NCBI GenBank assembly: GCA_914767715.1
Contig: OU612074.1
Span: forward strand, 4,417,501 to 4,481,500
Reading direction: 5' to 3'
Source of the DNA: Membranipora membranacea
Taxonomy: Eukaryota > Bryozoa > Gymnolaemata > Cheilostomatida > Membraniporidae
DNA length: 64,000 nt
Shown here: positions 27,946 to 37,457 of the stretch, one piece after another
Numbering within the stretch: position 1 is the first letter of the stretch
How the letters are laid out: every line of letters begins with the position of its first letter
Notes under the pieces: generated by a model
The model's input: the letters and a program-made list of their open reading frames with translations, nothing else
The model's database searches: none
Told to the model about the DNA's origin: nothing
Position numbers and translations under genes: made by a program

Positions 27946-28120
27946 GTGAGGAAACTGCAGTAGACATGGATTTACCTGCTGACTATGAATGTAACTACTG
28001 TTTTGATACGATCGAGGCTATGAAGGATCCCCGTAAGCTGCCCTGTGGTCATGTCTTCTGTTATCAATGTCTCAGGGATGACCCATGGGCTGGTTATATA
28101 ATCGTCTGCCTCACATGTAG
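27946..28120 (+). other. RING-finger exon, copy B
   Basis: A single exon with a complete C3HC4 pattern: CNYC, then CGHVFCYQC, then CLTC. It starts after an acceptor (atactgcag) with the reading frame open upstream of the ATG at 27966, so either a start or an upstream exon is possible. It ends TGTAG|gtgagc in phase 2, matching the next exon (28636). A near-identical copy is at 47954-48128. Confidence 0.85.
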
Positions 28121-31100
28121 GTGAGCAGTGATAGACCATGGTTTTTGTAACGCATCGCATCCTTAGCACTCGCTGGTTAAACAAGGCACAGATAGATGTC
28201 ATTGTCTTGGACTGAGTAATAATATTGCTGCAGATTTGGTGCTAAGTTTTCCTCAGGCTGAAACCTGTAGAGACCAGTATCCAGAAGGCTTCACCAAGAT
28301 TTAAACTACATCTTTCTAATCTGACCTGACCCAAACTGACCTACTCTCCACTTGACTAATCCAAGTCAGTTATTTCTTTGGATGAGATTTTTTCATCACT
28401 GCAAATCAGAATTTTGAAGGAGAACTTTTTTTTGGATACTTCCCAGTTCATAAAAAGTCCCAAAGCTGGTAGTTGAAAGGTGAGGCGGATAATTGTTGGT
28501 GGTTCTCGGGAGATTTTGTTAACATTGCAGGTTATGATATTAATGTAGGAACCGGATGAAGCATGAAATTAATTTTAAATCTTGCTAAGTCTGCTATAAC
28601 CAAACCGATATTTACATTGTATTCCCTTATTTCAGCTCATCTCATGAGAACCTTGATTTAGGTTCATTACCTTTGTATCAACCCGTGCAGCAAAGAACCG
28701 AGGGCAATAGGGCAACAGAGGTTAAAGGTGAATGTCAGGAAGATGAAAAAATAGAAACTCTGCCTTACTCAAAGTCTAGTTTTACAGACAATTATGTCAA
28801 CTCCTGCAGAAACGGTGACACTATTTCCTGTGTCAAACAACAACAGGTAAGTGGCAGAGCTACAAACATGTTCTATGTAGTCATATAAATGCAGCATTCA
28901 GAAAAAACATAATTGATATTATCCATGCTAATGGTTTGTTTTGTTCTATAGATTTCATGTGGGTTGCACAAGAAAGAAGGAGTTGGGATCCTTACGAGAA
29001 TCAGCAGCAGCAGTTTGGGACAGCGTCAGATTGTTAGAGTTATTCAACATCGAATACAGAAAGCAGAATTAAAAAATGTAAGTCCAACACTCACTGGTTT
29101 AGTTTTTATAATGATTATATCAGCATCTAGGAACAACTACTCTGAATATGCCACTGCTGTTCAAAAGGGTGCTGTGACAGTGGCTCAGAAGAATGGGACC
29201 TCAGGAACAGCTTGCGCTGGCTACGCTCTGACAAATGAACATATAAGGTGAATGGAGCCTAACTTAAGCTGTTATAAGGTGTTCTGTGTAGGTTAAGTCT
29301 TTGGGTATAACTGGCAGTGTCTTTGGAGGATAGCATCTCACTTAAGTATAAGAGAAAAGTAGGACAATCTGGTGATACAATACTAGGAATAACTCCTATA
29401 CTGTGAATTGTCAACGGAAGCATTTTGATAGAGTCCTTTCTGCACCTTTATAGTTTCAAATGATTGACTGAACTAATTGGTTGGCAAACTACTTGGTGGA
29501 AGATAAATTGGGAATCACGCTTTGTATGGTCAAGTTAGAGCTCATATTTTCCCGACGAAGTGACTGAGTTGACTGTTGTTTGACTTTATTTGACAGAGAG
29601 CAAAGAACCCATGGAGACTCGGTGGTAATGAGCAGGAAAATGCTACAGAAGCAGATAAAGCCCACAATTGTTTGATCAGAACTATGAGAGGCATGCTCAA
29701 CAAAATCACACCACAAAAATATGGGGTTATTCTCAAAAAGGTAGGGACGACAGTACAATTGATGGAATTGCCTCCTTCCGGTGACACTTAAGTGCTCTTT
29801 TTGCCTTTTTAAAAATAATATCATCGCATAAGAGACAATCATTGAAGATGATACGAGAGAATTAAAATGAGAAAAACCGGCATATCATTCTCAAAGTAGT
29901 GAAGCATTTAAAGAGTTGCCTGGTTTTCCTAAACTTGCAGAAGTAAAACAGAAAAGTTTCATACTTTCAATTATGTGTGAACAATCATTGGACCGTATGG
30001 TCACAGTCTTTTCAATTTTTGATTTGTAGATATTAAAACTATCAGTAATCTCAGAGAAAGATCTGACAGGAATTATGAACCTTGTGTTTGAGAAGGCCAT
30101 TTCAGAACCTTTATACAGTACCGTGTATGCATCTGTTAGTGAGAATCTAGCTAAGGTAACTGATATAACAGGGCCATACTTTCTCTGTCATGCATGCCTA
30201 TAGGGTGGTGATTTTGTCACTCCTAGAAAGAGGATAAAACATTTTATGTAAACATTGTTCATTTTCACCAAATCAATAAAGAAGGTGCCATTGAATTCAA
30301 ATATTCATTTTCTACCAAGGACTGAATGTTAAACTTACAGTGAATATTATGTAGACCTGACCAGCTCAATGCCATGGCCCCAGTGAATATGCTGTTGGCA
30401 TTAGAGTTGTATTTCAAGCCACTAGGCAGATTAGCTGTTAGCCACCATAATTAGATGCTTTACTTTAAATTCCAATTGAATTAAATTCCAACTACACTGA
30501 CACACAAGATCTGCCCAAAGTGAGTCAGAGACAGAGTGGTTGTTTTGTTGAGATATGTTTCCAAATTGGTATAGCAGTTGTGAATCAAATACAATTACAA
30601 CCCAGAAAATATGAATGTGAATGATAGCGAAAAAAGTTTTTGTCGCATATTAATAAAAATAACGATCCAAGTTTCAAGATGGCTCTTTTCTCTGCTGTAG
30701 GAGTTCAAGGTACCACTAGCTGATGACCCAAATACATCTGTGAGCTTCCGAAAGCTGCTACTCGTACGATGTCAAAAAGAGTTTGAGAGATCACATGATG
30801 ATGATGTAGAGATGGTAAGAAAAAAAGCTAACCTGGACAAGGCCACAGGTGATGAGAAGGCTCAACTTCAAGTGGAGTTTGATAAGTTTGAGACCACTGC
30901 TCGACGCAGGAAGCTAGGAAATATCAGGTATATTGAACAACTATAATAGAGGAGAGCTTAAGGTGTCATTGAATTGATACGCGTTACTCTTTGTTTGTAT
31001 TCTGTTAGAAAAAGCTCTCATTTAGGTTTAGTTTAGACTATATACAATTGAGAGGGTTTCTTGCTTTACCAAACGCTGTTGAAAAGTCGGACTTTCCCTA

Positions 31101-37100: not shown

Positions 37101-37457
37101 TTTGTCATTTTTATCAGAACTACGCAGGGCACAAGAATCACTTGAACTGTCATGGATGTGTTTAGCTGTGATGTATCTGGCATCAACCCAGCCTCCATAT
37201 ATATAGGCTCCTCTTCCGCAATTCTAACTGAAGCTACAGAGATGATCTCACTGCCCCCACTGTATTATGTCGTATTATCAATCTATTACATATTTTATCG
37301 TTTTATTTTAGAATTGCTCAGCGATATCTGTCGTGCTCTCTCTGAAGAAGAGTTGATATCAGACGATTCATTCTTCGACTGGGAGAATAATAGCAAAAAT
37401 GGAATAGCTATCAAATCTGTATCACAATTCTTCCAATGGTTACGGACTTCTGATTAA
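27946..37457 (+). CDS. EIF4G: RING-eIF4G chimera: RING, MIF4G, MA3 and W2 domains (copy B)
   Basis: Seventeen exons: 27946-28120, 28636-28846, 28952-29077, 29597-29740, 30030-30155, 30701-30927, 31212-31368, 32159-32272, 32419-32573, 33933-34170, 34405-34550, 34810-35056, 35431-35808, 36110-36208, 36420-36645, 36906-37043 and 37312-37457. Every junction is GT..AG and in phase, giving 1010 codons from the ATG at 27966. Residues about 8-52 form a C3HC4 RING ([17 protein letters not shown]). A linker of unknown type follows, then MIF4G ([56 protein letters not shown]), a Gly/Ser-rich linker with [12 protein letters not shown]3 ([33 protein letters not shown]), and W2 to the stop. In eIF4G, MIF4G binds eIF4A, eIF3 and RNA, and MA3 binds eIF4A again. 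The N-terminal PABP and eIF4E-binding parts are absent. The eIF4G core is certain by motif order. Whether the RING exon truly splices to it, rather than belonging to a separate short gene, is inference from phase and open frame. Confidence 0.8.
29597..32573 (+). other. EIF4G: MIF4G domain exons, copy B
   Basis: Six exons encode the HEAT-repeat MIF4G domain plus the following [13 protein letters not shown] segment. Motif order follows eIF4G1/3 rather than DAP5/eIF4G2, for example IARRR-like [18 protein letters not shown] and [20 protein letters not shown]. This is the platform for eIF4A binding. Confidence 0.9.
31440..31650. repeat. GC-rich intronic repeat shared by copies B and C
   Basis: A GC-rich stretch (gccaggcggggtgggggctg and cttcccgcc) in the intron after exon 7, present also at 51870-52085. 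It predates the B/C duplication. Its ends were not resolved; a resemblance to the patch at 24425-24490 suggests a dispersed repeat. Confidence 0.45.
32874..33688 (-). mobile_element. Internally deleted hAT element with C-terminal transposase remnant
   Basis: An 815-bp insertion flanked by the perfect 8-bp repeat AAGCGAAA (32866-32873 and 33689-33696), in an intron of copy B and missing from copy C. The minus-strand ORF 33286-33528 keeps the hAT C-terminal dimerisation region ([20 protein letters not shown] and SLALINIH). The ends are related imperfect inverted repeats with ggtgctc motifs. The rest of the transposase is gone. Confidence 0.82.
34697..34752 (+). repeat. Duplicated acceptor and exon start (decoy 3' splice site)
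   Basis: The end of the intron and the first bases of exon 34405 (gttcacttagactaagatct ... cag|gcacttagtatgggtgg) are repeated about 325 bp downstream, inside the next intron. The copy keeps an acceptor AG but has no matching exon body or donor, so it is a pseudo-exon start. Confidence 0.7.
34810..35808 (+). other. EIF4G: MA3 domain exons, copy B
   Basis: Two exons hold a Gly/Arg/Ser-rich linker and the MA3 HEAT domain ([46 protein letters not shown]). MA3 is the second eIF4A-binding site of metazoan eIF4G. These exons have no counterpart in copies A or C. Confidence 0.9.
36110..37457 (+). other. EIF4G: W2 domain exons, copy B
   Basis: Four exons: one linker exon ending [13 protein letters not shown] in phase 0, then the three W2 exons paralogous to 17191-18217. 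The stop TAA is at 37455-37457. Flanking introns are also similar to copy A, so the duplication included non-coding sequence. Confidence 0.88.

Follow-up and report, generated by a model that had tools for sequence, protein, structure and literature searches.

Candidate RING-eIF4G chimeric genes in a tandem cluster of the bryozoan Membranipora membranacea

The translation factors eIF4G1, eIF4G3 and DAP5 (eIF4G2) have the domain order MIF4G-MA3-W2, and DAP5 lacks an eIF4E-binding motif. In the TRIM family of ubiquitin (E3) ligases the RING comes first and the B-box next, and in TRIMCyp (TRIM5-cyclophilin A) such an E3 head is combined with a host protein exploited by viruses. TRIMCyp is reported to have arisen independently in several lineages (PMC6677749, PMC2924388). 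Here we analysed a stretch of 64,000 nucleotides of the Membranipora membranacea genome (contig OU612074.1, hereafter C10; C10:4417501-4481500), referred to as the window, in which a gene designated copy B was found to carry a RING finger, termed RINGa, in one frame with an eIF4G core.

Copy B has the domain order of eIF4G1/3 and DAP5 and, like DAP5, no eIF4E-binding motif, but its N-terminus consists of a RING and a decayed B-box exon. Identification of copy B as a DAP5 was rejected, because the match of its tail is to the cluster's own ordinary eIF4G, making it a local derivative. As in TRIM ligases, the RING comes first and B-box-like exons follow, and a TRIM-like gene elsewhere on C10 has counterparts of both RINGa and exon 2; unlike in TRIM ligases, the C-terminal part is eIF4G, and the B-box is decayed in B and without a Pfam match in copies A and Z, whose RING is of a second type (RINGb). 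Like TRIMCyp, these genes couple an E3 head with a host protein exploited by viruses, and such a fusion has arisen more than once, two clearly different heads being present in this genome and a third independent head being likely in unionid mussels; however, the host part is a different one, the hosts are invertebrates, exons were joined within a tandem cluster, and any antiviral action here is putative. Both halves belong to known families; the joint, the presence of both heads in a single genome and the mussel parallel are the parts for which no precedent was found in the literature. Literature searches, some of them aimed at such fusions or at related gene-family expansion, and with most subscription papers outside their reach, found no publication whose title or start of abstract concerns RING/TRIM-eIF4G fusions.

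Structure of copy B and the other RINGa copies

Copy B comprises 17 exons (27966-37457) with AG/GT borders and agreeing phases, which join into a single uninterrupted reading frame of 1010 codons, followed by a stop. The original prediction of a RING exon and 16 further exons in one frame over MIF4G, MA3 and W2 is borne out by phases, borders and Pfam matches alike; the start codon lies at 27966, not at 27946, and the TRIM-like relative shows an identical start. The modelled frame begins with the RING, which matched zf-RING_UBOX at 29.0 bits (cut-off 25.2) and seven further RING models, each under its own cut-off. The zf-RING_UBOX match was above cut-off in A and Z also, so that C3HC4 zinc ligands are recognised in all three, and no match to the Pfam B-box (PF00643) was obtained in B, A or Z. 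MIF4G, MA3 and W2 each scored above cut-off in copy B, in the order of eIF4G (Table 1).

When the tail of copy B was compared exon by exon with the ordinary eIF4G gene at the left edge of the cluster (R09), it was 89-98% identical from exon 6 on, with 61% for exon 4 and 76% for exon 5, and exon 3 was 72% identical to its ordinary counterpart over 90 aligned bases. Exon 2 was about 31% identical to the B-box exon of the TRIM-like gene at C10:3.829 Mb, a score attained by none of 2000 shuffles, and its GTAAGTGGC donor is also present in that gene, which led to rejection of the notion that this donor had arisen anew in exon 2. Because exon 2 matches a B-box exon and exon 3 an eIF4G exon, the junction between head and tail was placed in the phase-0 intron before exon 3. 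RINGa gave a raw score of 185 with the TRIM-like relative and at most 51 with RINGb (scores, no tree). On this architecture copy B is very probably a chimeric gene, in which 5' exons of a TRIM-like ubiquitin-ligase gene stand ahead of the MIF4G, MA3 and W2 exons from an eIF4G duplicate.

The TRIM-like gene (L036, C10:3825600-3829600, minus strand) has a RINGa-type RING, a B-box that scores 22.4 bits against a cut-off of 24.1, and a C-terminal frame of 237 codons with no Pfam match above cut-off; three RING matches of this type lie there, and L036 is the one that was read. Position 42643 shows a similarity to the RING-containing frame, but this concerns the part upstream of the RING and not the RING itself.

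The motif YxxxxL[LMIVFW], through which eIF4E is bound, occurs in none of the B, A and Z models. The eIF4E-binding exon was not found in the window or in L011, and none of its six genome-wide matches lies in a RINGa copy; the cap independence that had been proposed is thus supported for B.

RINGa has eight close matches on C10 (at least 71.7 bits), of which the cluster holds five and the region at 3.81-3.83 Mb the other three; the score then falls to 53.7 bits (150 of 377 candidates scored). All eight zinc ligands are kept, by eye, in the four cluster copies that were read, namely B, C, L011 and L020 minus. One of these (L011+L012) is a second complete 17-exon RINGa-MIF4G-MA3-W2 copy of 1012 amino acids without internal stop, which argues that the frame of copy B is not due to chance. 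Copy C retains RING and MIF4G and has lost MA3 and W2. An extra partial copy of exon 9 (40 of 51 codons) stands just 5' of that exon in copy C (53138-53620) and in L011+L012 (L012:1013-1498); none was found in B.

For the RING exon, comparison of B with L020 minus, the most diverged copy read, gave a synonymous rate (dS) of 0.33, a replacement rate (dN) of 0.059 and a dN/dS ratio (w) of 0.18, with 8 synonymous changes among 15 (binomial p 0.004). The comparison of B with C, which the original prediction had put forward, was uninformative for the RING (1 silent and 1 replacing change), and for exon 4 in MIF4G (1 silent, 6 replacing) the changes were too few. Exons 4 and 5 of the RINGa copies (29597-30155 in B) show few silent relative to replacing changes in some pairs, in numbers too small for testing.

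RINGb copies, the cluster and parallels in other animals

The searches covered 339.3 Mb in 18 contigs. The published assembly, tzMemMemb1.1, has 339,374,674 bases in 21 scaffolds, of which a few small ones lie outside the searched set, and its authors report having removed 17 haplotypic duplications (PMC10290214); this removal argues against false duplication. Within about 0.5 Mb of C10, 17 RING-exon loci (five RINGa, twelve RINGb) were located next to one ordinary eIF4G gene. Sequence was read around four of the five RINGa and five of the twelve RINGb loci, together with the later head exons of R19; for the remaining cluster loci, except those at 4659968 and 4667086, the tail was assigned by position. 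All 15 genome-wide matches of exon e15 and all five of the MA3 exon fall at 4.16-4.66 Mb on C10. MIF4G had 22 matches, nine in the cluster and 13 elsewhere, including eIF4G-like copies at C10:14.73-14.83 Mb; these outside matches were read in part (L023-L028, L035), and more ordinary eIF4G genes are possible among them. The ordinary gene (R09; L032, L009, L010, L030) has a Q/P-rich N-terminus, an eIF4E-binding exon, MIF4G, MA3 and W2, and no head exon was found within 10.5 kb before its eIF4E exon.

At E 1e-5 the first RINGb exon, T1, matched 15 sites: twelve belong to the cluster, and the remaining three lie at 14.76-14.95 Mb. Copy A (13857-18217) consists of a RINGb head followed by W2 only, 416 amino acids in all, with no MIF4G or MA3 exon between; its head continues behind the RING with Cys/His-rich exons that are B-box-like by eye, a short helical-looking exon (T5) and a linker. 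Five T1-to-e15 pairs, spaced 3,319-3,334 bases, share the layout of A by position, A being the only one of them read. In copy Z (L029+L015+L016) a RINGb head is followed by MIF4G-MA3-W2, 1096 amino acids as modelled; its junction from T6 to e04 skips 7.5 kb that also hold a T6-like exon (T6p) and an e03-like exon, so that the exact splice is uncertain. In R13 and R17 a RINGb head, the eIF4E-binding exon and MIF4G were read, with W2 assigned by position and no MA3 match between, and a locus at 14.835 Mb (R28) combines a diverged head with an eIF4E exon. RINGb in A and Z has the usual CPIC and CPTC pairs.

Across T1-T6, A against Z gave w 0.28 (p 5e-9) at dS 0.66. Both heads, RINGa and RINGb, are under purifying selection. 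In W2 the same pair has a dS of 0.09, against 0.66 in the heads, which indicates exchange or homogenisation of the tails, with the heads kept separate. The tails of B and Z are 95% alike in DNA across 8.7 kb.

In R13 and R17 a single stop-free exon runs from T6p into eIF4G exon 1, with the start codon gone and the donor of the ordinary exon 1 retained. T6p was assigned to the head because of its similarity to T6, its place behind T1-T6 in R13 and R17, and its absence before eIF4G exon 1 in R09. T6 (L033:5006-5158) and T6p (L033:3488-3676) are similar exons that both begin in phase 1, T6 ending in phase 0 (borders as read), and the two may be mutually exclusive, alternatively spliced exons. In copy A, e15 opens at an acceptor rather than a start codon and is separated from T6 by a 217-base intron, phase 0 to phase 0.

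Among database gene models, a search from a Potamilus protein recovered RING-MIF4G-MA3-W2 proteins of unionid mussels, namely Sinanodonta P0121 and P0122 and Potamilus P0001, labelled "hypothetical" in the source lines consulted. The MA3 of P0122 is partial and under cut-off, and P0001 has two MIF4G stretches and perhaps represents two merged genes; a further Potamilus protein, P0164, has B-box, MA3 and W2, and a RING by eye. With these proteins, and with the seventeen RING exons of the bryozoan cluster, the RING-eIF4G order is not confined to copy B. Ordinary mussel copies (P0018, P0030) carry YDRDFLL, which the RING-headed mussel proteins lack, whereas a match to YxIRALM was found in both kinds; the locus number of P0018 is close to that of a RING-headed protein. 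The RING of P0121 is neither RINGa nor RINGb: it resembles those of TRIM2/56, with a raw score of 134 with TRIM2 and at most 81 with the bryozoan RINGs (no tree). Because of this unlikeness the mussel fusion probably had an origin independent of the bryozoan ones, although RINGs are too short to prove origin. In goldfish, P0124 resembles these proteins in having a TRIM part (RING, B-box, coiled coil and the start of PRY) ahead of MIF4G, and differs in having no MA3 or W2 match; known from one gene model, on a contig of 110 kb, it is possibly a further case of fusion or else an annotation artefact.

Candidate functions and alternative explanations

From its sequence, the RING would be predicted to act with an E2 as a ligase, and the eIF4G core would be the aiming part, binding eIF4A, eIF3 and RNA as in other animals. 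Picornavirus proteases cleave eIF4G between the eIF4E site and MIF4G. Internal ribosome entry sites are reported to use cleaved eIF4G (PMC3525551), and norovirus VPg is reported to bind eIF4G HEAT-1 (PMC4703368). Without an eIF4E site, B would resemble the C-terminal eIF4G fragment recruited by many viral RNAs and proteins; the core would trap such RNA or proteins on eIF4A/eIF3/40S assemblies, and the RING would ubiquitinate the captured material. Because viruses bind the eIF4G core, as VPg does at HEAT-1, we regard an antiviral E3 ligase aimed by eIF4G, in the manner of a TRIMCyp decoy, as the likeliest use, a suggestion whose chance of being right we put just short of even. Extended to all cases, the proposal is that RING/TRIM-eIF4G fusion is a recurrent antiviral invention, with at least three fusions (two bryozoan, one unionid), in which the core baits viral RNA or proteins and the head marks the complex; this is put forward tentatively, by analogy. 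Ligase activity, partners and antiviral role are predictions from sequence.

It seems that, more than once, a core translation factor has become the part that aims a ubiquitin ligase. If active, the chimeras would offer a new route for targeting ubiquitin to translating or virus-hijacked complexes and a candidate class for invertebrate antiviral immunity. The cluster also provides a natural set of swapped heads and truncated tails that could reveal the minimal working unit.

Several observations weigh against this proposal. RINGa departs from the usual E2-contact residues, having neither the customary hydrophobic residue within its first Cys pair, nor the Pro of its last pair, nor a basic residue after that pair, which makes E2 binding uncertain. 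AlphaFold models of the RING exon (two sequences) had a mean predicted local distance difference test score of 57, too poor to back the fold. Residues 1-254 of B, used as a protein query, matched none of 832 candidates, and RINGa was thus found in no other species. Constraint on MIF4G exon e04 is weak among the RINGa copies, with w at 0.5-1.5 over few sites. R13 and R17 retain the eIF4E-binding exon, so that loss of cap binding is not cluster-wide. R19 and R21 have heads and stops in the tail, and L020 minus, with e06-e07 absent, has a broken MIF4G. T6p resembles T6 only weakly (about 32% similar), and the GC donor of T6 in copy A is a mild weakness for that junction.

The main rival, which we consider unlikely, is that the chimeras regulate host translation, either with the core docked on eIF4A, eIF3 and mRNA and the E3 head ubiquitinating initiation factors or ribosomes, or as a dominant-negative eIF4G. 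Docking on host factors is expected from a tail so close to R09 from exon 6 on, and DAP5 (eIF4G2) is reported as a member of the eIF4G group that has no eIF4E site (PMC9977666). On the other hand, copy A and four more loci judged by spacing keep only W2, and copy C only MIF4G; such varying copy number and architecture suits an arms race more than a housekeeping function, without being decisive.

It is improbable that the head is not a ligase and that the RING/B-box exons just oligomerise or stabilise a cap-independent eIF4G: the unusual E2-contact residues of RINGa and the lost ligands of the B-box exon would fit this, whereas the eight RING ligands kept in all four RINGa copies read, the low w of the RING exon and the CPIC and CPTC pairs of RINGb in A and Z speak for ligase heads. 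Equally improbable is that segmental duplication left non-functional composites with frames open merely through youth. The decay of R19, R21 and L020 minus and the closeness of the B and Z tails are in keeping with this explanation; against it stand the dN/dS ratios of the two heads, which lie well under 1 (at dS 0.33 for RINGa and 0.66 for RINGb), the two intact full-length RINGa genes and the parallel chimeras in another phylum. That heads and tails are separate neighbouring genes, joined on paper, is very improbable even though the junctions of B, A and Z are intronic, with a 7.5 kb gap in Z and a GC donor needed in A, since the R13/R17 junction is exonic, head exons finish in open frame with donors, e15 of A begins at an acceptor, and mussel protein models show the same domain order.

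Features of the window

Table 1. Positions in the window of the exons of copies A, B and C and of a transposase remnant
Feature	Position	Strand	Evidence
Copy A T1-T2 (13857-13977, 14304-14435): RINGb ring finger, intron-split	13857..14435	+	zf-RING_UBOX 33.0 bits, cut-off 25.2
Copy A T3-T6 (14743-14830, 15724-15844, 16392-16485, 16789-16973)	14743..16973	+	by eye
Copy A e15-e17 (17191-17416, 17666-17803, 18072-18217): W2 tail and stop	17191..18217	+	W2 40.7 bits
Copy B exon 1: carries the start codon and the whole C3HC4 RING (RINGa)	27966..28120	+	Pfam, frame; ligands by eye
Copy B exon 2: linker, homologous to B-box exon of TRIM-like gene, zinc ligands partly lost	28636..28846	+	
Copy B exon 3: eIF4G exon immediately 5' of MIF4G	28952..29077	+	identity to ordinary-copy exon
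Copy B exons 4-8: MIF4G domain	29597..32272	+	Pfam 147.6 bits
Copy B exons 9-12: MIF4G-MA3 linker	32419..35056	+	exon model
hAT transposase dimerisation remnant, copy B intron 9	33286..33648	-	22.9 bits, cut-off 21.4
Copy B exons 13-14: MA3 domain region	35431..36208	+	Pfam 72.3 bits
Copy B exons 15-17: W2 domain and stop	36420..37457	+	Pfam 39.1 bits
Copy C: RINGa, exons 1-10, then shortened exon 15 that stops early; frame open over 607 codons	47974..55972	+	

Arrays of the same 60-base repeat lie near both ends of the window, at 4439-5569 (18.9 copies) and 57499-60276 (46.3 copies), and the 2.7 kb segments that run into them (2879-5572 and 55931-58632) are 95% alike. A 7-base repeat, TATCATG, is present in 49.7 copies at 6189-6538.

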